A stretch of DNA of 64,000 nt from an uncultured Rhizobiaceae group bacterium (GTDB lineage: Bacteria; Pseudomonadota; Alphaproteobacteria; Rhizobiales; Rhizobiaceae). A model generated the notes under the pieces. The model ran no database searches and was not told where the DNA came from. It saw only the letters and a list, made by a program, of their open reading frames with translations. The stretch covers positions 620,001-684,000 of the forward strand of contig CALHBJ010000001.1 of assembly GCA_937930845.1 (NCBI GenBank), in the 5' to 3' direction. Positions within the stretch are counted from its first letter, which is position 1; every line of letters starts with the position of its first letter. Below, in pieces: positions 5,651-29,633 of the stretch. Both the position numbers and the translations under genes were made by a program.

Positions 5651-5690
5651 GATAAATCTTCTTCTATTTTTAAAAGTAGGAAACAACATA

Positions 5691-13189: not shown

Positions 13190-13321
13190 GCGGGCCGTGA
13201 AATCAAGAAACCGAAGGCCCAAAACGCAAGGATTGCGGCAATTGAGGTCGCGAATTGAGCGGAATCTTGCCAATGTCTGAACGAGATTGGTGAAAATCAA
13301 TGTGCAAATTCCGGAACCGAG

Positions 13322-14425
13322 ATGTTTCAGATTCATCCCACAGCGCGCATCCGCCCCTCACCATTCTACAATTCTGCTATTGCGGAGGGAATGACATCTG
13401 CGAGCATCTATAATCGCATGATCTTGCCAACCTCCTATGGCGACCCGGAGGCGGAATATTGGCGGATCATCAATGGGGTATCCCAATGGGATGTGGGGGT
13501 GGAACGGCAGGTTCAGGTCAAAGGACCGGATGCGGCTGCATTGGCACAGATTTTAACTGTGCGGGATTTGTCCAATTGCAAAACCGGGCAGGGCAAATAT
13601 GCGCCGATCTGTAACCATTCAGGGGTCATCATCAATGACCCGATCGTGCTAAAACTGGCGGATGATCTGTTTTGGTTTTCGATTGCCGATTCTGACATCT
13701 GGTATTGGGCGCGCGTCATCGCGGCTGAACGCGGCATGGATGTTGAGGTCAGTGAGCCGGACGTGTCGCCGCTTGCGGTACAGGGACCAAAAGCAGAGGA
13801 CGTTGTGGCGTCGATCTTTGGCGACCGGGTAAGGGCGCTGAAATATTTCTGGTTTCTGGAAACGGAAATCGAAGGCATACCGGTCGCAGTTGCCCGTTCG
13901 GGATGGTCCAAACAGGGGGGCTTTGAAATCTATTTGATGGATGGAACCAAAGGCGACCACCTTTGGAACATCGTCAAAGAGGCCGGTCAGCCCTATGATA
14001 TTGGCCCCGGTGCCCCCACAACGGCGGAAAGAACCGAAAGCGGTCTGGTTTCAGTCGGTGGGGATACTGACGAGCGGACCAATCCTTATGAAGTGCGGTT
14101 GGGCAGTTTTGTGAACCTGGACATTGGTGATGATGTGGTCGGCATCAAAGCATTGCGGGACATCGCCACGCGCGGGGCAACGCGCCAGCAACTTGGCCTT
14201 GTGTTGGAAGGGGACGCCCCCTCGCCGCTTGGGTTTGAATGGGAAGATATTGAATTTAACGGTAAGAAAATCGGCAGCATGACCAATTGTGTGTGGTCAT
14301 TTCGCATGGAGAAAAACATTGGCTATGCGCTGATCTCCAACGAAGCAAAGCCGGGCACAGATGTGACCATCAAACGCCTGAACGGTGACGTTACGGCCCA
14401 GCTTGTCGAACTGCCGTTCCTTTAA
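13322..14425 (+). CDS. dmdA: DmdA-like aminomethyltransferase (DMSP demethylase family)
   Basis: 367 aa, GcvT/aminomethyltransferase fold with tetrahydrofolate as methyl acceptor. Several stretches match what is known of DMSP demethylase DmdA: NRMILPTSY, WDVGVERQVQVKGPDA, RDLSNCKTGQGKYAP, WFSIADSDIWYWA, EPDVSPLAVQGPK and RSGWSKQGGFEIYL. DmdA moves a methyl group from dimethylsulfoniopropionate to tetrahydrofolate, giving methylmercaptopropionate. Homologues outside the proven clades may act on other methylated compounds, so the substrate is a probability. No dmdBCD genes are adjacent; an acyl-CoA ligase of the right superfamily lies 29 kb away. The gene is followed by a palindrome that may end the transcript. 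Confidence 0.75.
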   Translation: MFQIHPTARIRPSPFYNSAIAEGMTSASIYNRMILPTSYGDPEAEYWRIINGVSQWDVGVERQVQVKGPDAAALAQILTVRDLSNCKTGQGKYAPICNHSGVIINDPIVLKLADDLFWFSIADSDIWYWARVIAAERGMDVEVSEPDVSPLAVQGPKAEDVVASIFGDRVRALKYFWFLETEIEGIPVAVARSGWSKQGGFEIYLMDGTKGDHLWNIVKEAGQPYDIGPGAPTTAERTESGLVSVGGDTDERTNPYEVRLGSFVNLDIGDDVVGIKALRDIATRGATRQQLGLVLEGDAPSPLGFEWEDIEFNGKKIGSMTNCVWSFRMEKNIGYALISNEAKPGTDVTIKRLNGDVTAQLVELPFL

Positions 14426-14444
14426 ATACAGTCAAACAAAAAAA

Positions 14445-14479
14445 CTAGAGCGGTTCAAGCTTAGCTTGAATCGCTCTAG
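14445..14479. repeat. Long palindrome between convergent genes (REP-like or bidirectional terminator)
   Basis: Two 16-base arms, CTAGAGCGGTTCAAGC and GCTTGAATCGCTCTAG, surround a three-base loop and differ by a single G-U-compatible position. A run of A precedes the left arm on the plus strand, so the minus-strand transcript would end in U. It sits between the DmdA-like gene and the oppositely transcribed dehydrogenase. Similar intergenic palindromes are dispersed in rhizobial genomes; whether this one is repeated cannot be seen from one window. Confidence 0.55.
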
Positions 14480-14529
14480 ATATAAATTTGTGCTCACGCT
14501 GTCAGGCTTCGCGTTTCGCTGCGCAGGCG

Positions 14530-14544
14530 CGGCGCAATGCGCCG
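14530..14544. repeat. Short GC-rich hairpin
   Basis: CGGCGC and GCGCCG arms with an AAT loop, in the same intergenic space as the larger palindrome and ~45 bases from the stop of the dehydrogenase. It may be part of the same dispersed element or the 3' hairpin of the dehydrogenase mRNA. Confidence 0.4.
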
Positions 14545-14587
14545 GGTCGGCATATGCCTCCCAGAGTTTCCACTTGAGTGAAAAACA

Positions 14588-16015
14588 CTAGATGCCGCCC
14601 ATAAGCATGTATTTCAGTTCGGTGAATTCTTCGATGCCATGGCGGGAGCCTTCACGCCCGACACCGCTTTCCTTCACCCCACCAAAGGGGGCAACTTCGG
14701 TGGACAAAACGCCTGTATTGATCGCGACCATGCCATATTCGAGCGCCTCTGCAACGCGCCAGATGCGACCGATATCGCGGGCGTAAAAATAGGACGCCAG
14801 ACCAAACTCGGTGGCATTGGCCAGTTCGACCACTTCTTCATCCTTGCTAAAACGATAGAGCGGTGCCACGGGACCAAAGGTTTCTTCGCGCGTGATCTTC
14901 ATTTCGGTGGTCACTTCGGTCAGCACTGTGGGGGCAAAGAAATTCTCCCCACTTTCGTGCGGTTTTCCGCCGATAGCGATTTCCGCACCCTTCGCCACTG
15001 CATCCGACACGTGGTCCTTGGCTTTGGCAACGGCGGCGGCATTGATCAGCGGACCAGTGGTCACGCCAGCCTCATCGCCAGGGCCCACTTTAAGTTTGGC
15101 CACTTCTGCTGTCAGTTTGCGGGCAAATTCATCATACACACCGTCCTGGACATAAATCCGGTTGGCGCACACACAAGTCTGGCCGGCATTGCGGAACTTT
15201 GAGGCCATCGCACCCTGAACGGCTGCGTCAATATCCGCATCGTCAAAGACGATAAAGGGAGCGTTGCCACCAAGTTCAAGACCGAGCTTTTTGACTGTAT
15301 CAGCGCATTGGCGATAGAGAATTTTGCCGACCGGTGTGGACCCGGTGAATGTGAGTGTGCGCACTTCCGGTCTGGTGCACATGACGTTGCCAATTGCCAC
15401 GGCATCGCCTGAAATGACATTGAGCACCCCATTGGGCAGGCCAGCATCCTGTGCCAATTTGGCCAATGCAAACGCCGTCAACGGCGTATCTGGCGCGGGT
15501 TTGACTACCGCTGTGCATCCGGCTGCAAAAGCCGGTGCGACCTTTCGGGTGATCATGGCAGCAGGAAAGTTCCACGGGGTGATGGCGGCCACCACGCCCA
15601 CAGGCTGACGCACCACAATGATACGACCATCCTTGAACGGGCTTGGAATGGTCTCACCATAAATCCGTTTGGCCTCTTCAGCATAATATTCGACAAAGGA
15701 TGCCGCGTAGATGATTTCTCCGCGGGCTTCTGCCAGGGGCTTGCCCTGCTCCTGGGTGAGGATGGCGGCCAGCTCATCGGCATTTTCCACGATCAGCTCA
15801 AACCAGCGGCGCAGGATGGCCGAGCGGTCTTTGGCAAGGCTGACGGACCAGGTTTTAAACGCTTCACTGGCCGCATCCACGGCTTGTTGAGCTTGTACGT
15901 CGCCAAAGTTTGGCACTTTGGCAATGACTTCACCATTGGCCGGATTCGTAACGGGTGTGTCTTCACCACCTGTCCATTTGCCATCGATCAGGCACTGAGT
16001 TTTGCGCAATGTCAT
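14588..16015 (-). CDS. gabD: NAD(P)-dependent succinate-semialdehyde dehydrogenase
   Basis: 475 aa, full-length ALDH. It has the Rossmann/substrate motif TPWNFPAAMITRKVAPA, the catalytic Glu loop LGLELGGNAPFIVFDDAD and the catalytic Cys in RNAGQTCVCANR. The overall pattern (EQGKPLAEARGEI, FGPVAPLYRF, APFGGVKESGVGREGS) is that of GabD-type succinate-semialdehyde dehydrogenase. It oxidises succinate semialdehyde to succinate. The start has AAGGAG upstream. It heads toward the PHA region and could return 4-hydroxybutyrate carbon to the TCA cycle by way of succinate semialdehyde; this link is inferred. A related glutarate-semialdehyde specificity is possible. Confidence 0.88.
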   Translation of the reverse strand: MTLRKTQCLIDGKWTGGEDTPVTNPANGEVIAKVPNFGDVQAQQAVDAASEAFKTWSVSLAKDRSAILRRWFELIVENADELAAILTQEQGKPLAEARGEIIYAASFVEYYAEEAKRIYGETIPSPFKDGRIIVVRQPVGVVAAITPWNFPAAMITRKVAPAFAAGCTAVVKPAPDTPLTAFALAKLAQDAGLPNGVLNVISGDAVAIGNVMCTRPEVRTLTFTGSTPVGKILYRQCADTVKKLGLELGGNAPFIVFDDADIDAAVQGAMASKFRNAGQTCVCANRIYVQDGVYDEFARKLTAEVAKLKVGPGDEAGVTTGPLINAAAVAKAKDHVSDAVAKGAEIAIGGKPHESGENFFAPTVLTEVTTEMKITREETFGPVAPLYRFSKDEEVVELANATEFGLASYFYARDIGRIWRVAEALEYGMVAINTGVLSTEVAPFGGVKESGVGREGSRHGIEEFTELKYMLMGGI

Positions 16016-16061: not shown

Positions 16062-16952
16062 TCAGTTGTTTTCCAGCCAGTCAGAAATGACGGCCACTTG
16101 TTCTTCATTGCGCAGGGTGGGTGTGTGGCCGGTATCATCAAACTCAACGAGAGTGGTTTCAGGGCCACGCGCAAGCATGCGGGTCGCAGTTTCTTCGCTC
16201 AGGAACGATGATTCACGTCCGCGCAGAATGAGGACCGGACACGTGATCCGTTCCCAGGTTTCCCACATGTCCACATTGAAATAAGAGATCGAGTCGCGAA
16301 AGGCTTCGCCAACCCGGCTATCAACTTTAAGCCGAAACGTGCCGTGGTTGGTGCGGCAGCAGGAATATTTCGCCATATGCGCCCAATCGGCATCCGACAT
16401 GGGGGCAAATTCCTTGTAAATGGAGCGCAGCAGCGCCTCCACTTCATCGACGCTGGCAAATTCCTCAGAACGCCCAATATATTCCGCAATCGACATCAGG
16501 GCTTCGCGAGAAACCTCCGGGCCAATGTCATTGACCACCAGGCGGCGAATGGGCGATTGGGCAACCGATGCCAGCACCATGCCGATGATGCCACCCATGG
16601 ACGTGCCAATCCAGTTGATCTCAGTCACACCCAAACGGGCGATCAGGGCGTTCATATCCGAATTATATTGCAGGTAATTATAGCCATCCGGCGTGGTGAT
16701 ATGGTCGCTGTCGCCGCGTCCCACAACATCTGGACACACAACCCGGTATTTCGTGCACATGCGTTCGGCGAAATAGTCGAAATCGCGGGCGTTGCGCGTC
16801 AGTCCATGCACACATAACAGCGTTTCCTGATGCTTGAACTGCTCCGCATCTCCCCATTCCAGATAGTTGATGCGGTGGAACCCGTGAAACCCAAGCCCCA
16901 AATGATAATGCCTTGAATAGGCCTTGGGGGGTTGTTTTATTCGATGCGGCAT
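16062..16952 (-). CDS. Alpha/beta hydrolase, possibly PHA-related
   Basis: 296 aa. Alpha/beta fold: ETLLCVHGLTRNARDFDYFAE carries the oxyanion HG, IGTSMGGIIG the nucleophile elbow with Ser, ITCPVLILRGRESSFLSEE the acid region, and FDDTGHTPTLRNEEQ the catalytic His. It lies 16 bases after phaR and 46 bases before the succinate-semialdehyde dehydrogenase gene on the same strand, so the three may be one transcript. That position suggests hydrolysis of hydroxyalkanoate oligomers or thioesters, but the fold alone does not show this. No signal peptide is seen, so it is intracellular. Confidence 0.8.
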   Translation of the reverse strand: MPHRIKQPPKAYSRHYHLGLGFHGFHRINYLEWGDAEQFKHQETLLCVHGLTRNARDFDYFAERMCTKYRVVCPDVVGRGDSDHITTPDGYNYLQYNSDMNALIARLGVTEINWIGTSMGGIIGMVLASVAQSPIRRLVVNDIGPEVSREALMSIAEYIGRSEEFASVDEVEALLRSIYKEFAPMSDADWAHMAKYSCCRTNHGTFRLKVDSRVGEAFRDSISYFNVDMWETWERITCPVLILRGRESSFLSEETATRMLARGPETTLVEFDDTGHTPTLRNEEQVAVISDWLENN

Positions 16953-16968
16953 AGATCGAAAATTCCTG

Positions 16969-17622
16969 TTATTTCAATTCTTTAAGTCGGTTTTGAAGGG
17001 CGTCGATCTTATCTTGAATTTGTTGCAGTTCCTGGCTGCGGTCCATGTCTGAGCCTTGCGAGGCTGCGGAAGTTCCTGATGCATGATCGCCGGGCGCTGC
17101 TTCGTTCGCTTGATCGGCACGTCCTGCCATGCCGCCAAACATCTCCCAGGAGCGGCGGAACAATTCCATATTCTGGCGCGCCAGACTTTGGCTGAACTCC
17201 ATCATTTGCCGCGTGTTGCGTCCCACGACAGATTCCATCGCTTCGCTCATGCGGTCCCGTTCGCTGACAAACAGTTTCATGGATTCAGTAAGATAGTCGG
17301 GCATCATCTGCCCATAGGTATCGCCATACATGGCAATCAATTGTTTCTGCACTTCCAGGGGGAAGTGATAGTTGGATGGCTTGGTTTCCTGTTCAAAAAT
17401 AATCTGATTGAGGATGCTGCGGGTGATGTCTTCCCCCGACTTCTTGTCTTCAATGACAAATTCAACCCCGTTGCGGACAAGCTCGACAATATCATCGAGC
17501 ACGATATAGGCGCTGGTTGCCGTATTGTAGAGGCGACGGTTGGGGTATTTTTTGATCAAAATTGGCCGCGGCTGGTCGTGACTTGGCTCGCCATCGGTCT
17601 TTGGATTCTCATCGTCTGCCAT
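16969..17622 (-). CDS. phaR: Polyhydroxyalkanoate synthesis repressor PhaR
   Basis: 217 aa. The N-terminal PHB/PHA-accumulation DNA-binding domain (residues ~20-80) is unmistakable: LIKKYPNRRLYNTATSAYIV, DDIVELVRNGVEFVIEDKKS, GEDITRSILNQIIFEQE. A second conserved block follows (LEVQKQLIAMYGDTYGQMM). The C-terminus is a short coiled coil (LQQIQDKIDALQNRLKELK). PhaR binds DNA to repress phasin and PHA genes and is released by binding PHA granules. A 15-base sequence in its own promoter (17714-17728) is repeated inverted upstream of the phasin gene, consistent with autoregulation and phasin control. Confidence 0.95.
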   Translation of the reverse strand: MADDENPKTDGEPSHDQPRPILIKKYPNRRLYNTATSAYIVLDDIVELVRNGVEFVIEDKKSGEDITRSILNQIIFEQETKPSNYHFPLEVQKQLIAMYGDTYGQMMPDYLTESMKLFVSERDRMSEAMESVVGRNTRQMMEFSQSLARQNMELFRRSWEMFGGMAGRADQANEAAPGDHASGTSAASQGSDMDRSQELQQIQDKIDALQNRLKELK

Positions 17623-17807: not shown

Positions 17808-18188
17808 TTAGAAGTTTACAGCAAAGCTCTTGGAGTAAGCGAGGCGTGCAGCTTCGCCGTTTTCTTTCATCACGCGACCGGAAAGTTCGGCAACGCCTTT
17901 AGACTGTTCGGTGATGCGCTCAGCAGTTGCAGCCATGTTGGATGTGGCAACTTTGTAGAACTCAGCAACATCGCTGGTTTTGTTCAATGCTTTAACGCCG
18001 TCAAAGCCCGCCGCCATGTTGGCAACGTAGTTGTCATAGACTTTCTTGGCCAGAGCTTCGCCGCCTTTGAACATTGCAGCGTTCATCTCGATCATGCTCT
18101 CAACCATCTTCTCGGAATTGGCGATGTTTTTCGTCACATATTCCTGGGACTTTTCGAAAGTTTCAGTCGCATCCATTTTCTTAGTCAT
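17808..18188 (-). CDS. phaP: Phasin, PHA granule coat protein
   Basis: 126 aa, almost wholly helical with the phasin-2 pattern: AAMFKGGEALAKKVYDNYVA, MAAGFDGVKALNKTSDVAEF and MAATAERITEQSKGVAELSG. Phasins coat PHA granules and set their number and size. The frame stays open 654 bases further upstream, but the ATG at MTKKMDATETFEKSQEYV has AAGGA before it, and the upstream part would run through the promoter region and into the divergent gene. It is divergent from the ThDP-enzyme operon and has its own terminator, as expected for a highly expressed single gene. Confidence 0.9.
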   Translation of the reverse strand: MTKKMDATETFEKSQEYVTKNIANSEKMVESMIEMNAAMFKGGEALAKKVYDNYVANMAAGFDGVKALNKTSDVAEFYKVATSNMAATAERITEQSKGVAELSGRVMKENGEAARLAYSKSFAVNF

Positions 18189-18510
18189 TTCAAAATCCTT
18201 GTTGATCATCGGTTCAAACCCAAAAACGAGGAACCGCCAGCAGGGGAAATCGGGAGGAGGACTGCCCTGCTGTGACACCAACATAAGGATATTTTTGTGC
18301 ATTGCAACATTTTTTTGTGCGCCGCACCATTTTTTATTCTCTGTTGCGCATTTTGCAGGGCTGACCTGCGGCCTTCTCGCTGGTAACATGTATATTGTCG
18401 TGCTTTGAGCCGCCGTGTCAGACCGGCCTGCCCAGACCGGTGACCAGAAACTTGTGCCTGGTTGGATAGAGAGCCAATTGGAGCGTCTCAAAGAGGGATT
18501 TAAGGAACAA
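18189..18510. promoter_or_regulatory. Divergent phasin / PHA-operon control region
   Basis: About 320 bases between the phasin start and the chosen start of the ThDP enzyme. T-rich tracts alternate with TGC words. The nonamer TTTTTGTGC occurs at 18292-18300 and 18312-18320, exactly 20 bases apart (two helical turns), and the second copy leads into the candidate PhaR operator. An extended reading frame from 18415 enters this space but lacks a ribosome site. Confidence 0.6.
18315..18329 (+). promoter_or_regulatory. Candidate PhaR operator upstream of the phasin and ThDP-enzyme genes
   Basis: TTGTGCGCCGCACCA, identical over 15 bases to the reverse complement of 17714-17728 in the phaR promoter. 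Contains an 11-base palindrome, GTGC-GCC-GCAC. Located ~127 bases upstream of the phasin start and ~182 bases upstream of the ThDP-enzyme start, so one site could control both directions. Confidence 0.65.
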
Positions 18511-20166
18511 ATGGGAACAAACACGATCCGTGCAGCCAAGCTGCTGGTTAAATGCCTTGAGAATGAAGGTGTTGAATATATTTTCGGCATTCCCGGCGAA
18601 GAGAATATTGGGGTGATGGATGCGTTGCTGGACAGCAATATCAAATTCATTATCACCCGCCACGAGCAGGCCGCGGCCTTTATGGCAGACGTATATGGAC
18701 GATTGACCGGGCGAGCTGGTGTTTGCATGTCGACCCTGGGGCCAGGTGCCACCAACCTTGTGACTGGCGTTGCCGATGGCAATATGGACCGGGCACCAAT
18801 GGTGGCAATTGCCGGCCAGGGCGCCACCACCCGCATGCACAAGGAAAGTCATCAGGTTCTGGACCTGGTCAATTTGTTTGCGCCGATCACTAAATACAGT
18901 GTCCAAATTCGTGAGCCGGAAATTGTGCCCGAAATTGTGCGCAAGGCGTTCAAATTTGCACAAAACGAAAAGCCGGGCGCTTCCTTCATCGATTTCCCCG
19001 AAAATATTGCGGAAATGGAAATTGAAGACATGCCGCCCCTGCGGGTTCAACACGCTTCGGCCGCGTGTGCAGCTGTTGGCAAATGCAAACAGGCCGCCGA
19101 CCTGATTGATGGCGCAAAAAACCCAATCATCATCGCGGGCAATGGTGTCATTCGCTATGGCGCAAGCGACGAATTGGTCGCTTTGGCGGAAGCCATCAAC
19201 GCGCCCGTGGCAACCACCTTCATGGCCAAGGGTGCCGTTCCATCTTCTCACCCCTTAAGCCTTGGCACAGTGGGTTTGAAAGCACACGATCTGGTCGCCT
19301 TTGGCATCGATGAAGCCGATCTGGTGATTTGCATCGGCTATGACATGGTCGAATATGATCCGGCCCACTGGAATCCCAATCACGACAAACAAATCATTCA
19401 TATTGATGGCTCCCCGGCGGAGGTGGACACCAATTACATCGTTGCTGCTGGCGTCATTGGCGACTTGAAGGATTCCATGAACCGCATCGCGGCCCGCAGT
19501 GAACGCTCGCCCAGCAAGCCGATGGCAAAGTTGCGCCAAAAAATTGTCAAGGAACTCAACGCTCACGCCGATGACATGAGCTTCCCGGTCAAGCCTCAAA
19601 AAATCATTTATGACATCCGCAAAGTGCTGAACCCGGAAGACGTGGTGATTTCCGATGTGGGCGCACACAAAATGTGGATGGCCAGAATGTTCCAGGCCGA
19701 ACGCCCCAATACCTGCATCATCTCCAATGGTTTTGCCTCAATGGGCATCGCCCTGCCCGGCGCGATTGCGGCCAAGCTGGTTTATCCGGAGCGTAACATT
19801 GTGGCTGTTTGCGGCGATGGTGGTTTCATGATGAACAACCAGGAAATTGAAACTGCAGTTCGCCTCGGCCTGAACATCACCGTTTTGATGTTCAACGACA
19901 ACAAACTGGGCCTGATTGAATGGCATCAACTGCGCGAATATGGCCGTAAATCCAACGTTGATGTGGGCAATCCGGACTTTGTAAAATTTGCCGATTCATT
20001 TGGCGCCAAGGGCTACAAGGTGGAGCGTGCCGAAGACCTTCAGGACATTCTCACAACGGCCCTAAACGATGGGCACGTGTCGATCATCGACTGCCCGGTT
20101 GATTATTCAGAAAACATGAAATTGACGCATCGCCTGAAAAGCATGACGTCGTTTGAAGAGGAATAG
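18511..20166 (+). CDS. ThDP-dependent enzyme: 2-oxoglutarate decarboxylase or acetolactate synthase-like
   Basis: 551 aa from MGTNTIRAAKLLVKCLENEG, preceded by AAGGAA; a longer frame starts at 18415. ThDP fold: RHEQAAAFMADVYGRLTGR holds the activating Glu, followed by TLGPGATNLVTGVADGNMD. The C-terminal ThDP/Mg motif is CGDGGFMMNNQEIE running to MFNDNKLG. By family it is annotated acetolactate synthase, but no small subunit follows. This sub-type includes the Synechococcus PCC 7002 enzyme shown to be 2-oxoglutarate decarboxylase, which makes succinate semialdehyde. The following Fe-alcohol dehydrogenase (9 bases away), PHA synthase and CoA-transferase make that activity attractive. Acetolactate formation remains possible. 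Confidence 0.8.
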   Translation: MGTNTIRAAKLLVKCLENEGVEYIFGIPGEENIGVMDALLDSNIKFIITRHEQAAAFMADVYGRLTGRAGVCMSTLGPGATNLVTGVADGNMDRAPMVAIAGQGATTRMHKESHQVLDLVNLFAPITKYSVQIREPEIVPEIVRKAFKFAQNEKPGASFIDFPENIAEMEIEDMPPLRVQHASAACAAVGKCKQAADLIDGAKNPIIIAGNGVIRYGASDELVALAEAINAPVATTFMAKGAVPSSHPLSLGTVGLKAHDLVAFGIDEADLVICIGYDMVEYDPAHWNPNHDKQIIHIDGSPAEVDTNYIVAAGVIGDLKDSMNRIAARSERSPSKPMAKLRQKIVKELNAHADDMSFPVKPQKIIYDIRKVLNPEDVVISDVGAHKMWMARMFQAERPNTCIISNGFASMGIALPGAIAAKLVYPERNIVAVCGDGGFMMNNQEIETAVRLGLNITVLMFNDNKLGLIEWHQLREYGRKSNVDVGNPDFVKFADSFGAKGYKVERAEDLQDILTTALNDGHVSIIDCPVDYSENMKLTHRLKSMTSFEEE

Positions 20167-20175
20167 GATTTCCCA

Positions 20176-21330
20176 ATGCAAACTTTTCAATTCCAAACGA
20201 CAAAGTCCATTCTTTGTGAAGTGGGCGCAACGGCCAAAATTGGCGAACTCATGGCTCAGATGGGCTGTAAGAAAGTTGCTTTCGTTACTGACAAGATCAT
20301 TCTGGAACTGGGCCTTGCCCAGGCCTCTCTTGACGGTTTGAAAGCCGCAGGCGTGGATGTCCATATCATTGACGATGTGGTTGCTGACCCGCCGGAAGCC
20401 ATGATCCTTGCTGCGGTTGAAGAATCCAAATCAGCGGGCGTTGATGGCGTCGTCTCCGTTGGCGGCGGGTCGTCGCTGGATACGGCTAAGCTCATTGCCG
20501 TTCTGGTGGGTTCCGATCAGCCAATCTCAGAAATGTATGGCGTTGGTCTGGTTCGCGATGATCGCTTGCCGCTGGTATTGGCCCCCACCACGGCGGGAAC
20601 GGGGTCGGAAGTTACTCCGATTTCCATCGTGACCACGGGGTCGAGTGAGAAAAAGGGTGTTGTGTCGCCCCAGCTTTTGCCCGATTGGGCAATTCTTGAT
20701 GCAGAACTGACCGTTGGTCTGCCAGCCCACGTCACGGCGGCTACAGGCATTGACGCTATGGTACATGCCATTGAGGCCTATACATCCAAGCACAAGAAAA
20801 ACATCGTCTCCGATACACTGGCGCGTCAGGCGCTGGAATTGCTTGGCGGCTCTATCAATACGGCCTGTACGGACGGACAGAACCGCGAGGCGCGCTCCAA
20901 CATGTTGCTCGGCTCCATGTTGGCGGGCATGGCTTTTGCCAATGCCCCGGTGGCGGCTGTTCATGCGCTCGCCTATCCATTGGGCGGTCATTTCCACGTA
21001 CCCCACGGCCTGTCGAATGCGCTGGTGCTGCCTTATGTGCTGGACTTCAACATGAGCGAAGCCAGCGGACTTTATGCCGAACTTGCGCCAATCATCTTCA
21101 AAGATCTGGCCGGTAAAAGCGCGGATGAAGCTTGTGCCGGCATGGTGCAGGGCTTTAAGGCGCTTGGCCCGCAATTGGGCATGAAGAGCAAGCTTGCCGA
21201 GGTTGGGGTGAACCACAACAACCTGCCAATGCTGGCCGAAGACGCCATGAAACAGACCCGTCTTTTGGTCAACAACCCGCGCGAAATGACCTATGAGGCC
21301 GCGCTGGACATCTACACCCAGGCTCTTTGA
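20176..21330 (+). CDS. Iron-containing alcohol dehydrogenase, possible 4-hydroxybutyrate dehydrogenase
   Basis: 384 aa, group III Fe-ADH. The NAD loop is SVGGGSSLDTAKLIAVL; TAGTGSEVTPISIVT follows. Metal ligands are Asp and His in TGIDAMVHAIEAYTS and two His in HALAYPLGGHFHVPHGLSNA, all intact. The family reduces short aldehydes, including succinate semialdehyde to 4-hydroxybutyrate (4HbD of Clostridium kluyveri belongs to it). It lies nine bases after the ThDP enzyme and 44 before phaE, so co-transcription is likely. The substrate is inferred from context; lactaldehyde or a diol is an alternative. Confidence 0.88.
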   Translation: MQTFQFQTTKSILCEVGATAKIGELMAQMGCKKVAFVTDKIILELGLAQASLDGLKAAGVDVHIIDDVVADPPEAMILAAVEESKSAGVDGVVSVGGGSSLDTAKLIAVLVGSDQPISEMYGVGLVRDDRLPLVLAPTTAGTGSEVTPISIVTTGSSEKKGVVSPQLLPDWAILDAELTVGLPAHVTAATGIDAMVHAIEAYTSKHKKNIVSDTLARQALELLGGSINTACTDGQNREARSNMLLGSMLAGMAFANAPVAAVHALAYPLGGHFHVPHGLSNALVLPYVLDFNMSEASGLYAELAPIIFKDLAGKSADEACAGMVQGFKALGPQLGMKSKLAEVGVNHNNLPMLAEDAMKQTRLLVNNPREMTYEAALDIYTQAL

Positions 21331-21374
21331 GCCTGGGATATTTCATTCATCGCAACCTTTGAAAAGAGTTTCCC

Positions 21375-22178
21375 ATGGCAAAATCCGATGACAACATGGA
21401 GCAGTTCTTCAACCTTTGGAAAGAAGGACAGGAAACGTTTCTAAAGACCCAGCAGGAACTCTATGATGGGTTTCAGGGCGCTTTGCAGGGGGCCAGCGAC
21501 GCCGGCGCTTCGTCGATGGATGATCCGGTCAAGACCTGGCAAAAAATGGTGGCGCTGTGGGCACCGCAATTTGAAAATTTCGCTGCCCAATTTGATGCTC
21601 CCATTGATGGCAATGCATTTTTCAACAAGGGACGTGATGCAATCTTTGCCATGATGGACCCGGCGCACTGGAATAAAATCATTCCCGAACAATTGCGCGG
21701 AATTCTTGAGACAGTAGCGCAAGGCCCCCGCTTTGCTGATCTGGCAACACCACAGATTGATGCCGCCCATTCATGGCGGGAGACTTTGGACTACCAAACG
21801 GCATCAGCCGATCTTGCCAAGGTTTTGCAAGGGGCCTGGGGGCGCGCCTATCAAAAATTCAGTGAAGACTATTCCCTGAACGACTTGCAATCCGGCGGCA
21901 CAGACGAAGCGCTGGAGGCATGGCTTGCGTGCGCCAATAAGGAATTGCTGGATACCCAACGTGCGCCTGAATTCATGGATGCCCAGCGGCGCATGATCCG
22001 CGCTTCCATGGAAATCAAAGCCCGCCAGCGCGACCTGGCCGAAGCATGGTCGGAGAATTACCAAATCCCCACACGGTCCGAAGTGGATGACCTGACCAAG
22101 ATCGTCCACGAGTTGAGGCGCGAATTGCGCCAGGTAAAACGCGATCTCGCCAATGTGCGTTCGGAGAAAAGTAAATGA
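21375..22178 (+). CDS. phaE: Class III PHA synthase subunit PhaE
   Basis: 267 aa, hydrophilic and helical, with features of PhaE: FFNLWKEGQETFLKTQQELY near the N-terminus, WQKMVALWAPQFENFAAQFD, EAWLACANKELLDTQRAPEF, and a C-terminal coiled coil (VDDLTKIVHELRRELRQVKR). PhaE has no catalytic residues but is required for activity of the class III synthase complex. Its stop overlaps the phaC start by four bases, confirming the pair. Similarity to the family is by pattern and length, not by a diagnostic motif. Confidence 0.8.
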   Translation: MAKSDDNMEQFFNLWKEGQETFLKTQQELYDGFQGALQGASDAGASSMDDPVKTWQKMVALWAPQFENFAAQFDAPIDGNAFFNKGRDAIFAMMDPAHWNKIIPEQLRGILETVAQGPRFADLATPQIDAAHSWRETLDYQTASADLAKVLQGAWGRAYQKFSEDYSLNDLQSGGTDEALEAWLACANKELLDTQRAPEFMDAQRRMIRASMEIKARQRDLAEAWSENYQIPTRSEVDDLTKIVHELRRELRQVKRDLANVRSEKSK

Positions 22179-23383
22179 TGCCGGTTAAGCGCGGTACTGA
22201 TGGCGAGCCCATTGATGTGAATGAAGCCGCAGCCCAGGCTTGGGCTTTGGCGTGGCAGCAAATGATGGAAGCCGGTGCCCGTACCGTAAAATCCAACGCC
22301 TTTTTATCCCGCACCAAAGACGACGAAGTCGCTATTGCCGAAACACCGGCGGATCTGGTTTATCAGATCGACAAGATCCAGGTGCTGCGCTATCGGCCAC
22401 TTACGGATAAAAAAGCTGATTTGCCACCCGTCCTGATTTGCTACGGATTGTTTGGCCGCCAAACGATGATCGACCTGCAGGAAGATCGCTCACTGGTCCG
22501 CAATATGCTGGAGGCCGGTGTTGATGTTTATGTGGTTGACTGGGGCAATGCCACACGCGCCGACCAGTTCCTCAATTTCGATGATTATGTGGATCACTAT
22601 CTTGGCTCCTGCGTGGAACATCTGGTGGATGCCAATGGCGGCAAGCCGATTACTCTGTTTGGAATTTGCGAAGGCGGCACTTTTGCAGCGGCGCTGGCGG
22701 CATTGCGGCCCAAATTATTCGCCGGATTGGCGCTGGCGATCACGCCCATTGATTTTCACGGTAAACCGGATGAGTTCCGGGCTGGTGAAGGTTTTTTGAA
22801 TAGTTGGATTGGCAATCTCGACGAAGCCGATGTGGACCTGATCATCGACACCCATGGCATGTTGCCAGGTGCATTCACGGGAGCCGTATTTTCATCTCTG
22901 ACCCCCATCAACAGCATGACGAAATACAATCTGGGACTGGCCGCCATGGAAGGCAATGAAGCCGCCATGCTGAATTTCCTGCGTATGGAAAAATGGATTG
23001 CCGATCGCCCCGACCATCCAGGCGGGGCGGCGCGCCAGTGGCTGAACCAGCTATATCGCGAAAACGCGCTCGTGCGCGGCGAACTGGTGATTGGCGACGA
23101 AAAGGTTGACCTGAAGAAAATCGCCTGCCCGGTGGTCAATATTTATGCGCTTCAGGATCACATCATCCCGGTGAGTTGCTCAAAAGCGCTCAGCACATTC
23201 ATCGCGCCTGACAAATATCACGAAATTGGATTTCCCGGCGGACATGTGGGTGTGTTTGTGAGCCGCAAGGCCCAGGGTGTTGTAGCCGGTGGGTTGCTGG
23301 AATGGATGCAAGATTGCCTTGCCACTGACGCCGCCAAGCCAAAGCACGCGGCCGCGAAGGGCAAGAAACAGTCAAAGAAATAA
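22175..23383 (+). CDS. phaC: Class III PHA synthase catalytic subunit PhaC
   Basis: 402 aa, the short form typical of class III (class I enzymes are near 570-600 aa). The lipase-like box is FGICEGGTF with nucleophile Cys about residue 165; YALQDHIIPVSC supplies the Asp and FPGGHVGVFVSRKA the His. It polymerises hydroxyacyl-CoA at the granule surface, with PhaE. The C-terminus ends in a Lys/Ala tail (KHAAAKGKKQSKK). Class III synthases are best known from purple sulfur bacteria and cyanobacteria, so one in an alphaproteobacterial context is noteworthy; class III enzymes accept short-chain monomers including 4-hydroxybutyryl-CoA. Confidence 0.93.
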   Translation: MMPVKRGTDGEPIDVNEAAAQAWALAWQQMMEAGARTVKSNAFLSRTKDDEVAIAETPADLVYQIDKIQVLRYRPLTDKKADLPPVLICYGLFGRQTMIDLQEDRSLVRNMLEAGVDVYVVDWGNATRADQFLNFDDYVDHYLGSCVEHLVDANGGKPITLFGICEGGTFAAALAALRPKLFAGLALAITPIDFHGKPDEFRAGEGFLNSWIGNLDEADVDLIIDTHGMLPGAFTGAVFSSLTPINSMTKYNLGLAAMEGNEAAMLNFLRMEKWIADRPDHPGGAARQWLNQLYRENALVRGELVIGDEKVDLKKIACPVVNIYALQDHIIPVSCSKALSTFIAPDKYHEIGFPGGHVGVFVSRKAQGVVAGGLLEWMQDCLATDAAKPKHAAAKGKKQSKK

Positions 23384-23434
23384 CATCTGGGCGCTTCGTG
23401 GAATTGCCCATGAAGGCCTTTTGGGAGAATTACG

Positions 23435-25369
23435 ATGGTCGATAAAGTGGTTTCCCTCGAAGACGCGATAGCGACAATCGACACGGGCGATACCGTGTGC
23501 GTTTCCGGATTTGTTGGCATCGGTACGCCTGAATGTCTGTTGCGGGGCTTGGAAGACCGCTTCCACCGCGATGGCTTGCCGCGCGATATTTCGCTGTTGT
23601 TTGCAGCGGCACCCGGCGATGGGAAAGAACGGGGCCTGAACCGGCTTGCCCACCCCGGCCTTGTCAAACGGGCCATTGGCGGACATTGGTCCCTTGTGCC
23701 CAAACTTGGGGCCATGGCGGTAAGGGAAGAAATCGAAGCCTATAATTTACCCCTGGGCTGCATATCGCAGCTTTATCGCGATATCGCAGCGGGCAAACCC
23801 GGCATGTTTTCAAAAGTGGGATTGCGCACCTTTGTCGATCCCCGCCAATCCGGCGGAGCGATCAACAGCCGTTCGGTGGAAAAATTAGTCACTCTTGAAA
23901 ACCTGTTGGGCGAAGAATGGCTGTTCTACCATTCCATACCCGTGGATGTGGCACTTATTCGCGGCACCACCGCGGATCCTTCCGGCAACATCACAATGGA
24001 GCGTGAGGCCCTGACCCTCGACATGCTGCCAATCGCCATGGCTGCCAAGAACAGTGGTGGACTGGTTATTGCCCAGGTTGAACGCATTGCTCAAAATAAT
24101 TCGCTGGCACCTCGTGAAGTGGTGATCCCGGGCAATCTTGTGGATTGCCTTGTGGTGGCGGAACTCGACGAGCATCACCAGACTTATCAGACCCATTATC
24201 ACCACGGATATGCAGGACGCATGCGCGGCGTTGTCGATCAACTGCCACCCATGCCGCTGGATGAGCGCAAGGTGATTGCCCGGCGGGCCGCCATGGAACT
24301 GCCGATCAATGGGGTGGTCAATCTGGGCATTGGCATGCCGGAAGGTGTGGGGTCGGTGGCTAATGAAGAGGGCATTATCAGTCATATCACACTGACAACC
24401 GAAGCAGGTGTCTTGGGTGGTGTTCCCCAATCGGGGCTGGATTTTGGCGCGGCCATCAATGCCAATGCCATCATTCAGACCAATCAGCAGTTCGATTTCT
24501 ACGATGGTGGCGGGTTGGACCTTGCCTGCCTTGGCATGGCTGAAACCGATGCCTGTGGCAATGTGAATGTCAGCCGGTTCAAAGACCGCTTTGCCGGTGC
24601 GGGCGGGTTCATCAACATCTCGCAAAACGCCCGCAAGGTTTTGTTCGTGGGCACTTTTACCGCAGGCGGCCTGAAAGTGGAGACCGGCGATGGCCAGCTC
24701 AAGATTGTTCAGGAAGGCCGAAACCGCAAATTCATCGAAGAAGTGGAACAGATCACCTTCAACGGTCGCTATGCGGCCGAACAGGGCAAAGAGGCTTTGT
24801 TCATCACCGAACGCTGTGTGTTCAACCTGACCGACAAAGGTTTGGAACTGATTGAAGTGGCCCCTGGTGTTGATCTGGAGAAGGATATTCTTGCCCAGAT
24901 GGCGTTTGAACCCATCGTGGGCACGCCAAAATTGATGAGCAAAAGGCTGTTCATGGACAAGTCCATGAAGCTGCGTAAGCAGTTGCTGGATATGAGCGTT
25001 ACTGACCGGCTCTACTATGATGCCGCGCAAAATATTCTGTTTGCCAATCTCAGTGGTCTGGAGATTGCCAATGATGGGGACTTGCGCAAATTCAGCGAGC
25101 CATTTGTCGGCTTCCTTGAAAACGTCGGTTACAAGGTCAATCTGATATCCAACTATGATGGTATTTCGATTGCGCCTGCCATGTCGGGCAAATTTGCTGA
25201 CTTCCTTACCCAGGTTGAGCAGGATCACTACCTCACAGCAACACGGTACACGACCAGTGCATTCCTGCGCCAAAAGCTGGGGCAAGACTTGAAGAGCAGG
25301 TCCATTGCACCGCATATTTTTGAGACACGGGAAGAAGCCGCGCAATATGTTGCCAATGAATTGAAGTAA
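23435..25369 (+). CDS. Fused acyl-CoA:carboxylate CoA-transferase with C-terminal extension
   Basis: 644 aa. Family I CoA-transferase with alpha and beta halves fused, as in propionate CoA-transferase Pct and YdiF. Alpha-half glycine loop: VCVSGFVGIGTPECLLRGL. Beta half: NLGIGMPEGVGSVANEEG, then LTTEAGVLGGVPQSG with the catalytic Glu near residue 323. Pct/YdiF proteins are about 510-530 aa; here ~110 residues extend the C-terminus (ending FETREEAAQYVANELK), of unknown role. It would transfer CoA from acetyl-CoA to a hydroxy acid, supplying monomers to PhaEC just upstream. 4-Hydroxybutyrate, 3-hydroxy acids, lactate or propionate are all possible substrates. Confidence 0.9.
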   Translation: MVDKVVSLEDAIATIDTGDTVCVSGFVGIGTPECLLRGLEDRFHRDGLPRDISLLFAAAPGDGKERGLNRLAHPGLVKRAIGGHWSLVPKLGAMAVREEIEAYNLPLGCISQLYRDIAAGKPGMFSKVGLRTFVDPRQSGGAINSRSVEKLVTLENLLGEEWLFYHSIPVDVALIRGTTADPSGNITMEREALTLDMLPIAMAAKNSGGLVIAQVERIAQNNSLAPREVVIPGNLVDCLVVAELDEHHQTYQTHYHHGYAGRMRGVVDQLPPMPLDERKVIARRAAMELPINGVVNLGIGMPEGVGSVANEEGIISHITLTTEAGVLGGVPQSGLDFGAAINANAIIQTNQQFDFYDGGGLDLACLGMAETDACGNVNVSRFKDRFAGAGGFINISQNARKVLFVGTFTAGGLKVETGDGQLKIVQEGRNRKFIEEVEQITFNGRYAAEQGKEALFITERCVFNLTDKGLELIEVAPGVDLEKDILAQMAFEPIVGTPKLMSKRLFMDKSMKLRKQLLDMSVTDRLYYDAAQNILFANLSGLEIANDGDLRKFSEPFVGFLENVGYKVNLISNYDGISIAPAMSGKFADFLTQVEQDHYLTATRYTTSAFLRQKLGQDLKSRSIAPHIFETREEAAQYVANELK

Positions 25370-26426: not shown

Positions 26427-29400
26427 CTACAGATCGACTTCGATAGTTCCACCAGGTTTTGCAGCACGGGACTGGCATAGAATAACGGATTTTTCCCGCT
26501 GGGCATTGGACAGCACAAAATCACGATGTTCGACCTCACCATCGATCAGGCCGCACTTGCACACCCCACAAATGCCGTCAGAACATTTCACATCCACATG
26601 AATGCCGTTTTCGGCCAGCACATCGGTTGCCGATTTGTCTGCGGGAACGCTCAACGTCTTGCCAGACTGAGCCAGTTTCAGCGTGAAATCGAAATTCTCC
26701 CATTCGGGGGCTTCCGGCACCGAAAAATATTCCAGATGTTTGTTATCTTCGGCAATGCCCGCCTTGTCCGCCGCGGCCATGACCGATTGCATGTAGACAT
26801 CCGGGCCACACGTATAAACGTGATCCCCTTGCCCGGCCTTGCTCAAGATTGCATCAAGGTCGGCGCGGGTGCCCTCATCTGACACATGAATATGCACCTT
26901 GTTGGCCCAGGGCATCTGCTCCAAGTCTTTCAGATATCCGGCTGTCTTGCGCGAGGATATGGAATAGTGAAATGCGAAATCATGCCCGGCCTTGTGGGCC
27001 TCATGGGCCATGGCAATCATCGGCGTGATGCCTATGCCGCCGCCCAACAGGTAAGACTTGGTCGCCGTATGGTCGAGGGGGAAATGATTGATGGGGCGGG
27101 AGATGAATATCTTGCGCCCCTTGTTGAAAATGCGGTGGAGCAATCGCGAGCCGCCCCGCCCCAGATCTTCGCGCAGCACACCAATTTGATATTTACTGCG
27201 GTCCGATGGATCACCGGACATCGAATATTGGCGCAGGAACTCCGGTGCCACGACAATGTCCAGATGGGCACCGGCCTGCCATTGGGGCAATGGAGAACCA
27301 TCCAGGGATGAGAACTCAAATTTGGTGACGCCCTCAGCCATGTTTTCAGCTTTCGTGATTTCCACACGGATGACCGGTGCGTCCCCGTCGATGCGAAACT
27401 CGTGGATCACATCACCGATCTCACCCGCAGCCAGCTTCGCCTTATATTCTTTAGCGGTAACCATCGCCTGGTAGGCTTCGATGCCCTTTTCCCGATCCAT
27501 GGGAAACGGAAATGGCCAGGGATGGGGCGCAAGGGGCGCGGGATAGACCGCCAATGTTTGATCTTCAAACTTAAGATCGAGATCTTTTTGCAGACTGCGC
27601 GCGTTCACCGCACGTGTGGTTGGCCGGTAAGCACCATCACCGGAAAGCTCCAGATCCCACCACCATTTCTTCACCGGGTTCAAAGAGCCATTGTCCACCG
27701 CATCATCGAGTTTTGCCAGAAGCGGTGCGGCCTGGGGCACATTCATCGCCGCCCAGCGGAAGGGTTTTTCGGCAAACAGTCCCTCCAGGTTCCAGGGACA
27801 TGTTTTCATACACCGGCCACACATGGCCCCACCGGGTGTGTTGATCCGGTAGGTGGCACATTTTTGACTATCAGATTTCCATATCTCGTAGCCGTTGAAC
27901 ATCAGTTTTGGCCCCGCCGTGATCGCACCAGACGGGCATTCACGGGCACATTTGTTGCAGCTTTCACAAAATTTCTGCAGGCCAAAATCAATCGGCTTGT
28001 CATGCGCCATTGGCAGGTCCGTGGTGACCACCCCGGATTTTAGCCGGGGGCCAAGATAGGGGTTAAGAATAACCTCACCGATGCGCGACACTTCTCCCAG
28101 CCCCGACAATAGCAAAAGCGGGGGCTGAAGAACCTCTCCATCCAGAACCGAATGGACCCGCGCCTTGTAGCCCAGATTGCGTATTTGCTTGGCAACCACG
28201 CCGCCAAGCAGTGAAAAGCGCAAATAGGCCCGCATGGATTGGGCGACCGAAATCCAGTCGTCGCCGGACGCGCCCTCCATGGTTTCATACCCCTGATCGA
28301 TGATCATCGAGATGGCCTGGTCGTGGGGCGGGTCGATTGGTTCGCCAATGGCATCGTGGGAATACCAGGTCCAAGGCGGGCAACGGGATATGCCCACCGC
28401 GTCCACTCCCAGAAAATAACTTGTCGCCTTGACCAGTTCGGCAGCCTCGACTGGGTCAATCATTGCCTTTTCAGGCGCCGGCTCTCCATCCTGTATCAGC
28501 ACAAATGCGCCAAGTGCGCGGCGTTGCGCGGAGGAAGGCGCGCTTTTGCGCACATAATGCCCGCCTTTTGCCCCATCTTGCAGCGGTTTTCCCATGTCAC
28601 CAAACTGGGCGCGGGCGAACATGTCGGCGCGTTTAGGCACCCGCGCCACGCGGGGTTCGTCAATGAATGTTGTTGGTGTTTCAACCCGTTTAAGTTTCTC
28701 AAACGGATGTTGCCCATCAACAAACCGGCGGCCGGAAAACGGCTCCCGGTTCATGGCATTTTTGGCAAAGCCCTTACCCAGTTTCCAGGCCAGACCATGG
28801 GTTTTAGAACGGGGCTGATCCGCCAACGGGACAAGAGGCCGGTCCGTGGCAAAAGGCATTTGCGTGGTGACAACGGCCAACCCAAAACGGTTTTCCAAAT
28901 AAGGATTGGTCAATACCCCATTTTCAACGGTGGCAAGACCGGCGGCGACAGCCAGTTTCCCCAGGTCAACATCACTGGTGGATACCGAGTGTGCCCTGGC
29001 ATCATATCCCAGCAATCGGATATAATTGGCGATTACAGTGGCTGTTTCATTTGCGCGCAATCCGGCCCTGGCTTGCTGGGCATTTTCAATCCAGCCCGTT
29101 CCCGGTTCATCGCAAGTGGGGTCGCGGGGATATTCATACAAATAGACAATCGCGTGGGTGTGGTGATCCATCGAGGTGGGCGGTGCCTCCATGGATTCCT
29201 TCAAATCCGCCATGATCAGATCAATGCCTGCCGCCAGGGTCTTGGTCTGTCTGGTGCGCAATGCCTGGGCCAGCGCATCAATATCTGGATTTCGAAATGG
29301 TTTGTCCAACCGGGCAGCATCGTCAAGCAGACAAGTGCCGACCATGGAAGCGTCATTGAAATATCCAAACGACTTTAAATGATTGGCGCACTCCTGTTCG

Positions 29401-29633
29401 TCATCTGGAATTTCAGACCGAACACGGTTGACCAGACCATCACGAATGGCATCCAGCATGGCCTGAAATTCCGCCATCGCATTGACGATGTTTTGCGGCG
29501 CATCGGGGCGGTCGAACAAAACAGGTTGCATGGCAGGAACGGCGGCCAGGTCAACTTTGTCGCAACGCGCCAGGCGTTCCAGTGGATAGGGACCAAGATG
29601 TACAGGACGGTCTTTATCGGAGAAAATTCGCAT
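26427..29633 (-). CDS. Self-sufficient reductive dehalogenase-like protein (RdhA fused to FMN/2Fe-2S reductase)
   Basis: 1068 aa. Residues ~395-615 form an RdhA-like core with two 4Fe-4S motifs: Cys 556, 559, 562, 566 (CESCNKCARECP) and Cys 592, 605, 608, 612 (CGRCMKTCP). Residues ~157-265 repeat part of the core without Cys (TNPYLENRFGLAVVTT versus LNPYLGPRLKSGVVTT). Residues ~750-980 are a phthalate-dioxygenase-reductase type module: FMN site RQYS 801-804, NAD loop GGGIG ~864-868. A C-terminal plant-type ferredoxin has Cys 1017, 1022, 1025 and 1053. This layout is that of the oxygen-tolerant B12-dependent dehalogenases NpRdhA and BhbA. No Tat signal, so cytoplasmic. The substrate is unknown, but the neighbouring phenylacetate genes point to aromatic acids. 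Confidence 0.82.
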   Translation of the reverse strand: MRIFSDKDRPVHLGPYPLERLARCDKVDLAAVPAMQPVLFDRPDAPQNIVNAMAEFQAMLDAIRDGLVNRVRSEIPDDEQECANHLKSFGYFNDASMVGTCLLDDAARLDKPFRNPDIDALAQALRTRQTKTLAAGIDLIMADLKESMEAPPTSMDHHTHAIVYLYEYPRDPTCDEPGTGWIENAQQARAGLRANETATVIANYIRLLGYDARAHSVSTSDVDLGKLAVAAGLATVENGVLTNPYLENRFGLAVVTTQMPFATDRPLVPLADQPRSKTHGLAWKLGKGFAKNAMNREPFSGRRFVDGQHPFEKLKRVETPTTFIDEPRVARVPKRADMFARAQFGDMGKPLQDGAKGGHYVRKSAPSSAQRRALGAFVLIQDGEPAPEKAMIDPVEAAELVKATSYFLGVDAVGISRCPPWTWYSHDAIGEPIDPPHDQAISMIIDQGYETMEGASGDDWISVAQSMRAYLRFSLLGGVVAKQIRNLGYKARVHSVLDGEVLQPPLLLLSGLGEVSRIGEVILNPYLGPRLKSGVVTTDLPMAHDKPIDFGLQKFCESCNKCARECPSGAITAGPKLMFNGYEIWKSDSQKCATYRINTPGGAMCGRCMKTCPWNLEGLFAEKPFRWAAMNVPQAAPLLAKLDDAVDNGSLNPVKKWWWDLELSGDGAYRPTTRAVNARSLQKDLDLKFEDQTLAVYPAPLAPHPWPFPFPMDREKGIEAYQAMVTAKEYKAKLAAGEIGDVIHEFRIDGDAPVIRVEITKAENMAEGVTKFEFSSLDGSPLPQWQAGAHLDIVVAPEFLRQYSMSGDPSDRSKYQIGVLREDLGRGGSRLLHRIFNKGRKIFISRPINHFPLDHTATKSYLLGGGIGITPMIAMAHEAHKAGHDFAFHYSISSRKTAGYLKDLEQMPWANKVHIHVSDEGTRADLDAILSKAGQGDHVYTCGPDVYMQSVMAAADKAGIAEDNKHLEYFSVPEAPEWENFDFTLKLAQSGKTLSVPADKSATDVLAENGIHVDVKCSDGICGVCKCGLIDGEVEHRDFVLSNAQREKSVILCQSRAAKPGGTIEVDL

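Follow-up and report, generated by a model that had tools for sequence, protein, structure and literature searches.

A predicted operon for 4-hydroxybutyrate polyester synthesis from 2-oxoglutarate in an uncultured Rhizobiaceae bacterium

In a 64,000-nucleotide stretch of DNA from an uncultured Rhizobiaceae bacterium (assembly GCA_937930845.1, contig CALHBJ010000001.1, positions 620,001 to 684,000; hereafter the window), five open reading frames (ORFs) on the plus strand, spanning 18415–25369, encode in order a thiamine diphosphate (ThDP)-dependent enzyme, an iron-dependent alcohol dehydrogenase (Fe-ADH), the PhaE and PhaC subunits of a polyhydroxyalkanoate (PHA) synthase and a coenzyme A (CoA)-transferase. 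We consider it probable (roughly 0.8) that this operon makes a 4-hydroxybutyrate polyester from 2-oxoglutarate of the tricarboxylic acid (TCA) cycle. An initial annotation, made from the sequence alone, had reached the same interpretation, which our results support as largely right. The five genes are spaced by 9, 44, −4 (an overlap) and 51 bases, in the order that it gave, and a phasin, the regulator PhaR, an alpha/beta hydrolase and then a succinate-semialdehyde dehydrogenase (SSADH) lie next door, as it also stated, on the divergent minus strand.

In the pathway that we propose, which draws on gene content, conservation, phylogeny and the lack of phaB matches over the model cut-off, the ThDP enzyme would decarboxylate 2-oxoglutarate to succinate semialdehyde, which the Fe-ADH would reduce with NADH to 4-hydroxybutyrate. 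The CoA-transferase, probably with acetyl-CoA as donor, would then form 4-hydroxybutyryl-CoA for polymerization by PhaE and PhaC. The phasin would coat the granule, PhaR would sense the polymer and de-repress both phasin and operon through paired boxes in their shared promoter, and the hydrolase and SSADH would return the monomer to succinate.

Conservation of the cluster and the substrate of its ThDP enzyme

A PhaC query matched 12/394 genomes in a family sample (E ≤ 1e-60), 6/385 in a class sample (E ≤ 1e-50) and 54/398 in a phylum sample (E ≤ 1e-60), 52 of the last being class III types with 36–43% identity; setting these 52 aside, we compared the neighbourhoods (9.8–20 kb) of 18 PhaC matches. 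All eight genes, hydrolase–PhaR–phasin on one side and ThDP–FeADH–PhaE–PhaC–CoA-transferase on the other, keep the same divergent order in 13 genomes from five genera and three families (the window, L026, L027, L029, L030, L160–L164, L166, L167 and L169), so the arrangement in the window is not due to chance. The initial annotation had suggested looking for this gene order elsewhere; besides these 13 genomes, rhizobial plasmids and one betaproteobacterium carry re-assembled forms of it. A metagenome-assembled genome (MAG) filed as Rhizobiaceae MO_188.B5 (L042) is apparently the L166 contig, being equal to it in length and match values, and was counted once. L168 holds a parallel cluster whose ThDP enzyme is without its N-terminal part, and at L028, L031 (a 9.8-kb contig), L032 and L033 a more distant PhaC has no cluster around it. 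Genome-wide counts below cover 14 genomes, namely the 13 with full clusters and G739, a genome of the window's genus with a partial one (L165:8654–14945), where Fe-ADH, PhaE, PhaC, PhaR, hydrolase and SSADH are retained. Another genome of that genus, G661, has a listed size of 0.9 Mb and a completeness of 98%, next to sister genomes of 2.8–4.8 Mb.

The ThDP protein contains the domains PF02776, PF00205 and PF02775. Among its homologues, MaKGD and MiKGD have demonstrated 2-oxoglutarate decarboxylase activity, with a KM of 4.47 mM and a kcat of 4.33 per s for MiKGD (PMC10418658). We collected homologues by scanning contigs with the peptide patterns VGAHKMW and GFMMN[NS]Q and took the best 80 loci (L042–L121); because AHK is part of the pattern, conservation of these letters in L043–L121 is not independent evidence. 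One locus, from Microcystis aeruginosa NIES-4325 (L113), encodes a 550-amino-acid (aa) protein with all 14 MaKGD pocket residues, and on these two grounds we take it, by sequence match, to be the assayed MiKGD. The window enzyme shares 57.8% identity with this putative MiKGD and keeps 11 of the 14 pocket residues, among them K386; three rows of the acetolactate synthase AlsS carry Y, Y and H at 386 and Q at 471.

In a ThDP tree of 55 rows, chosen among the 112 in the alignment and built by a quick method with SH-aLRT (approximate likelihood ratio test) support only, the AlsS rows make up a separate clade (100). Opposite them, at 92, stand 46 PRK08322-type rows, including the window enzyme and MiKGD, and the operon copies form one clade (99); long outgroup branches leave the deep order unsure. 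The initial annotation had placed the enzyme in the sub-type of the 2-oxoglutarate decarboxylases and had named a grouping with AlsS as the outcome that would speak against this; the enzyme groups with MiKGD, and not with AlsS. The E1 component of 2-oxoglutarate dehydrogenase (OGDH) is present in 14/14 cluster genomes, so no TCA bypass is needed, and we reject as the main role a decarboxylase–SSADH route in place of OGDH.

Neighbouring genes suggest that the substrate of the ThDP enzyme is 2-oxoglutarate. PRK08322-type genes adjoin SSADH or aldehyde dehydrogenase genes in Leisingera, Haloarcula and Vibrio plasmids, and an SSADH-family ORF occurs in 25 of the best 80 loci, many of them ending at contig ends. 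An Arenicellaceae MAG (L044) has the order SSADH–ThDP–FeADH, the last interrupted by the contig end; its SSADH is 57% identical to that of the window and scores 677 bits with the SSADH model (cut-off, 646). In the betaproteobacterium GR16-43, a ThDP gene whose product is 65% identical to the window's opens the series ThDP–ZnADH–PhaE–PhaC–hydrolase–TctC–CoA-transferase–IDH–phasin, in which ZnADH is a zinc-type alcohol dehydrogenase, IDH an isocitrate dehydrogenase-like gene, and TctC and phasin were named by eye. A Bosea vaviloviae plasmid carries on one strand acnA–IDH–ThDP–FeADH–PhaE–PhaC–CoA-transferase–phasin–hydrolase–acs–ppa–adk (adenylate kinase). For both IDHs, the best matches are isocitrate dehydrogenase models, with scores (437 and 443 bits) under the cut-off of 510. 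The Bosea cluster would thus hold genes leading from citrate to 2-oxoglutarate at one end and genes for the recycling of acetate, pyrophosphate and AMP at the other, and the acs–ppa–adk end would suit a pathway in which acetyl-CoA donates the CoA. The Bosea ThDP enzyme scores 820 bits with PRK08322, and both K386 and K471 are kept in the ThDP enzymes of Bosea, Sinorhizobium meliloti and Methylobacterium.

Two further loci contain parts of this set. In Labrenzia alba, ThDP and Fe-ADH genes are followed by a 226-aa ORF (L043:13171–13851) that reads by eye as a PhaE remnant and then a hydrolase remnant, which would fit a loss of the synthase genes from the cluster. A Skermanella mucosa plasmid (L176:2007–10911) carries genes for L-arabinonate dehydratase and an aldolase, then ThDP–ZnADH–CoA-transferase, with no PHA synthase annotated there; these genes may make 4-hydroxybutyryl-CoA from arabinose-derived 2-oxoglutarate.

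Reductase, CoA-transferase and polymer synthase

The reductase step has experimental support through a homologue. Purified GhbD of S. meliloti HM006 uses either NADH or NADPH to reduce succinate semialdehyde (preprint, PMC12636752). The window Fe-ADH is 54.4% identical to GhbD across 384 residues. Identity is 56.4% to the Fe-ADH of the Agrobacterium fabrum blc locus (order, blcR–SSADH–FeADH–AttM) and 32–35% to Escherichia coli FucO, YiaY and EutG. In a tree whose rows were picked as near matches and whose three outgroup branches are long, the window protein groups with GhbD and the Fe-ADH of the blc locus, split from the three E. coli proteins at 100/100.

For the CoA-transferase, the nearest solved structure is YdiF (2ahu; E 3.8e-131), and E323 aligns with E333 of YdiF, which we take to be its catalytic residue; together with the Pfam match, this places the protein in the Pct/YdiF family. 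Residues ~520–644 form a C-terminal extension of ~125 residues past the YdiF match (5–511), which is kept in the alphaproteobacterial, betaproteobacterial and S. meliloti clusters and missing from the Rhizobium leguminosarum 3841 (Rlv3841) match (4–533).

PhaE and PhaC are encoded side by side and, with the Cys-Asp-His motifs (in PhaC GICEGG, LQDHIIP and GGHVG), have the architecture of a divergent class III-type pair. In a PhaC tree of 34 rows, 22 form one clade (99), consisting of 14 alphaproteobacterial and six rhizobial-type rows, GR16-43 and L031; the remainder are 11 hand-picked other class III PhaC and one distant row. A GxCEGG lipase box occurs in all 14 alphaproteobacterial rows, the betaproteobacterial row (1/1), five of the six rhizobial-type rows and L031, and a GxCQGG box in 11/11 of the other class III PhaC and one rhizobial-type row (L171). 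The PhaC proteins of the alphaproteobacterial, betaproteobacterial and rhizobial clusters thus belong to one clade; their ThDP enzymes occupy different positions in the ThDP tree, and the reductase is either an Fe-ADH or a Zn-ADH. Parts seem to have been exchanged around a preserved reaction sequence, and this speaks for selection on the pathway.

A whole-genome search found no phaB over the model cut-off in any of the 14 cluster genomes (phaA and phaJ were not searched for), which extends to the whole window genome the phaB part of an earlier remark that the 3-hydroxybutyrate genes are missing here. By comparison, 12 of 13 control relatives, picked for a distant PhaC match in a frame of at least about 600 aa and hence class I-like, have phaB over the cut-off. 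G082, searched alongside these relatives, carries the cluster and is counted among the cluster genomes. A second, class I-type PhaC is present in three of the 14 genomes (G082, G626 and G948; 473–501 bits, under the cut-off), and no second PHA synthase was seen in the other 11. On these counts, ordinary phaCAB-type synthesis of poly(3-hydroxybutyrate) (PHB) is unsupported.

We also put forward a broader proposal, tentatively, as one that could go either way. Here, mostly homopolymeric poly(4-hydroxybutyrate) (P4HB) would be the sole PHA, made straight from 2-oxoglutarate, a feedstock that piles up at nitrogen shortage, by a route that consumes NADH. At least three separate assemblies of this route would have taken place, each joining other decarboxylase and dehydrogenase genes to a shared PhaC core, and the type III ‘PHB’ synthase of some legume bacteroids would be included.

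Counter-evidence and alternative explanations

Several observations weigh against a 2-oxoglutarate-to-P4HB operon. In one of the 14 alphaproteobacterial loci (L165), the ThDP, phasin and CoA-transferase genes are missing from the 20 kb, SSADH is adjacent in just six (the window, L160, L162, L163, L165 and L167), and two of the 14 genomes are less than 90% complete (81 and 87%). No acs was found among the ten proteins scanned around the window cluster. The Fe-ADH misses the cut-off of the NCBIfam 4-hydroxybutyrate dehydrogenase model NF058672 (237 vs 500 bits), which, judging by its name, is a model of the Cupriavidus enzyme. PhaC and PhaE miss the class III cut-offs (TIGR01836, 306 vs 365 bits; TIGR01834, 60 vs 155 bits), so the class III assignment made at the outset holds by architecture and motifs but not by these models. 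The ThDP enzymes of Bosea, S. meliloti and Methylobacterium are 36–40% identical to that of the window and hence hardly closer than AlsS (35–37%); their neighbours bear on the window enzyme by analogy only. The window enzyme also exceeds the cut-off of the AlsS model PRK08617 (528 vs 510), although family names cannot decide function because the same labels fall on the putative MiKGD (PRK08617, 521 bits; PRK08322, 878 bits), and we rejected NCBIfam names alone as evidence. It differs from the MaKGD pocket at Q254K, Y465L and K471H, and that pocket, including K386, K471 and Q254, itself comes from a model with docking (PMC10418658). Finally, in the preprint on GhbD, the polymer is described from Nile Red staining and microscopy, and the parts of it used here give no polymer chemistry (PMC12636752).

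Of the alternatives, the one that survives best has 4-hydroxybutyrate as a minor unit and 3-hydroxybutyrate as the main monomer, supplied by PhaJ, by FabG or by imported 3-hydroxybutyrate and the CoA-transferase. Class III synthases polymerize 3-hydroxybutyrate, and the window genome encodes many short-chain dehydrogenase/reductase proteins (TIGR01829 has 37 matches there at E ≤ 0.001, led by FabG, whose gene lies between fabD and acpP). We nevertheless regard this explanation as unlikely, given the contrast in phaB between the cluster genomes and their relatives and the position of PhaC in a distinct clade with the GxCEGG box.

Considerably less probable is decarboxylation of another dicarboxylic 2-oxo acid: malonate semialdehyde would then arise from oxaloacetate, or glutarate semialdehyde from 2-oxoadipate, and the monomer would be 3-hydroxypropionate or 5-hydroxyvalerate. 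The three pocket departures favour it. On the side of 2-oxoglutarate, K and H replace the cyanobacterial Q254 and K471 both in the window and in 12/12 other alphaproteobacterial copies, so two basic side chains are retained in another arrangement. Against another oxo acid stand the SSADH genes adjoining the 6/14 loci and the L044 series, the aconitase and IDH-like genes in Bosea and the IDH-like gene in GR16-43, and the clade of succinate-semialdehyde and gamma-hydroxybutyrate (GHB) enzymes in which the Fe-ADH sits. We reject as very improbable an acetolactate synthase unconnected with the polymer, the function given by automatic annotation through PRK08617 and the name of PRK08322, since AlsS forms a separate clade, the AlsS model TIGR02418 is missed (483.8 vs 551.1 bits), the putative MiKGD bears the same two labels and acetolactate decarboxylase (PF03306) was found in 0/14 cluster genomes, with control matches in 3/14 named genomes.

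Locus, related systems and implications

Table 1 Features of the predicted polymer locus in the window
Feature	Position	Strand	Evidence
SSADH, gabD type	14588–16015	−	TIGR01780, 716 bits (cut-off 646)
Alpha/beta hydrolase	16062–16952	−	PF00561, 73.5 bits
PhaR, PHA synthesis regulator	16969–17622	−	TIGR01848, 118.6 bits (cut-off 109.45)
Phasin	17808–18188	−	PF09361, 39.2 bits (cut-off 24.9), scanned with over-long start; start taken from sequence reading
Paired PhaR-type boxes, TGC-N3-GCA	18298–18306 and 18318–18326		Divergent phasin/ThDP promoter
Predicted ThDP-dependent 2-oxoglutarate decarboxylase	18415–20166	+	PRK08322, 794.9 bits (cut-off 509)
Predicted Fe-dependent succinate-semialdehyde reductase/4-hydroxybutyrate dehydrogenase	20176–21330	+	PF00465, PF25137
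PhaE subunit	21375–22178	+	PF09712, 60.6 bits (cut-off 25.7)
PhaC subunit, divergent class III type, GICEGG box	22175–23383	+	Best match TIGR01836, 306 bits (cut-off 365)
Pct/YdiF-family CoA-transferase, predicted 4-hydroxybutyrate:acetyl-CoA CoA-transferase	23435–25369	+	PF01144, 97.5 bits

The initial annotation began the operon at 18189, which is intergenic and just outside the phasin gene, and this start had to be moved. The ThDP ORF opens at the GTG listed in Table 1, but its true start is probably ATG 18511, which is preceded by AAGGA ending 4 bases upstream and gives a protein of 551 aa (550 in MiKGD). The hydrolase matches the intracellular short-chain-length PHA depolymerase model weakly (61 bits; cut-off, 300) and has 43% identical homologues within the GR16-43 and Bosea clusters; it is likely to be a polymer or oligomer hydrolase. 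Elsewhere in the window, GC content is 44–45% at 2001–6000 compared with 49–57% in the rest, a possible island. At 26427–29633 on the minus strand, a 1068-aa iron-sulfur protein matches Fer4, DmmA-like reductase and Fer2; it presumably resembles a self-sufficient reductive dehalogenase fusion, without a Pfam dehalogenase match. A 67% identical copy occurs directly beside the polymer cluster in another family (L169:16177–19380).

A TGC-N3-GCA pair, its boxes 19–44 bases apart, is found in the divergent promoter of 13/13 loci. Across these loci (one of 64 kb and twelve of 17–20 kb), 13 of the 16 box pairs spaced 15–50 apart fall in that promoter; single boxes are not enriched in the window (41 found vs 45.6 expected by chance). 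PhaR sites are TGC-rich, as in TGCGACGCA and TGCGTTGCA at the phaP1 promoter of Bradyrhizobium diazoefficiens (PMC10888616), and it is plausible from these patterns that PhaR binds the paired boxes.

On pSymA of S. meliloti HM006, pha-1/pha-2 have the same order of Fe-ADH (GhbD), PhaE, PhaC (45% identical to the window's) and CoA-transferase (55.7%). A symbiotic P4HB cycle has been proposed for these clusters, with gamma-aminobutyrate (GABA) as the likely source of succinate semialdehyde (Geddes et al. 2025, PMC12636752). Medicago sativa nodules accumulate succinate semialdehyde and GHB, bacteroid granules depend on the pha loci, and the words oxoglutarate, ketoglutarate, acetolactate and decarboxylase are absent from the main text of that preprint (PMC12636752). 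Unlike the intact gene of the window, the ThDP match upstream of ghbD is split over two frames, in agreement with two annotated pseudogenes mentioned there (PMC12636752); the HM006 cluster also has acs and att genes alongside and lies on a symbiotic megaplasmid. The ThDP gene is in one frame in S. meliloti ml45, Bosea and Methylobacterium CB376, but not in Rlv3841 or pPR4, and these one-frame genes of the rhizobial plasmid type belong to a different clade from that of the window. On pRL10 of Rlv3841 (L170:24–1860 and 12001–14977), the type III synthase genes have two broken ThDP genes and an additional Fe-ADH, itself split, around them. A bacteroid type III PHB synthase was reportedly the subject of Terpolilli et al. 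in 2016.

The same reactions (2-oxoglutarate decarboxylase, 4-hydroxybutyrate dehydrogenase, CoA-transferase and PhaE/PhaC) were combined in an engineered Synechococcus PCC 7002, in which ogdA, gbd1, cat2 and phaABEC yield P(3HB-co-4HB) from 2-oxoglutarate (PMC7147479, PMC8659255). That route was assembled by engineers from three organisms, whereas the window genes are native; their CoA-transferase is of the YdiF/Pct type, and the genome has no phaB over the cut-off. Cyanobacterial OgdA/KGD enzymes are 56–59% identical to the window ThDP enzyme (12 loci), with an aldehyde-dehydrogenase gene upstream in 8/12 (31–38% identical to the window SSADH). The cyanobacterial enzyme completes the TCA cycle, whereas the product of the window enzyme, in genomes that all have OGDH E1, is predicted to be reduced and built into polymer. 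The Agrobacterium blc (attKLM) locus for GHB catabolism also has SSADH beside its Fe-ADH, but it is catabolic, with a lactonase, and has no synthase or decarboxylase in the stretch examined.

Among the papers listed by searches of an open-licence library, we found none that describes a native 2-oxoglutarate-to-4-hydroxybutyrate operon. The initial annotation knew of no described native operon of this make-up; in these searches that stands for the 2-oxoglutarate-fed form, but the later steps, without the decarboxylase, have a precedent in the P4HB cluster of the rhizobial preprint (PMC12636752). What is new here is the predicted entry from 2-oxoglutarate, the spread of that step, and its position as the sole PHA route found in most cluster genomes. 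In the reviews drawn on here, few wild types incorporate 4-hydroxybutyrate from unrelated carbon (Hydrogenophaga pseudoflava and Bacillus cereus), wild-type P4HB homopolymer is made only with fed 4-hydroxybutyrate precursors, engineering being needed to make it from sugars, and P4HB is an approved medical polymer (PMC7147479, PMC8659255).

If the proposed pathway is correct, P4HB would gain a natural source in central metabolism, and carbon could be stored directly from 2-oxoglutarate when nitrogen is limiting. The native operon would also be a source of evolved enzymes, above all the PhaC subtype with the GxCEGG box, and some genes named acetolactate synthase would be reframed. The rhizobial P4HB cycle would have a second supply of succinate semialdehyde, and the chemistry of the R. 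leguminosarum 3841 bacteroid polymer, which has been ascribed to a type III PHB synthase (PMC5852556), would be worth re-examining.

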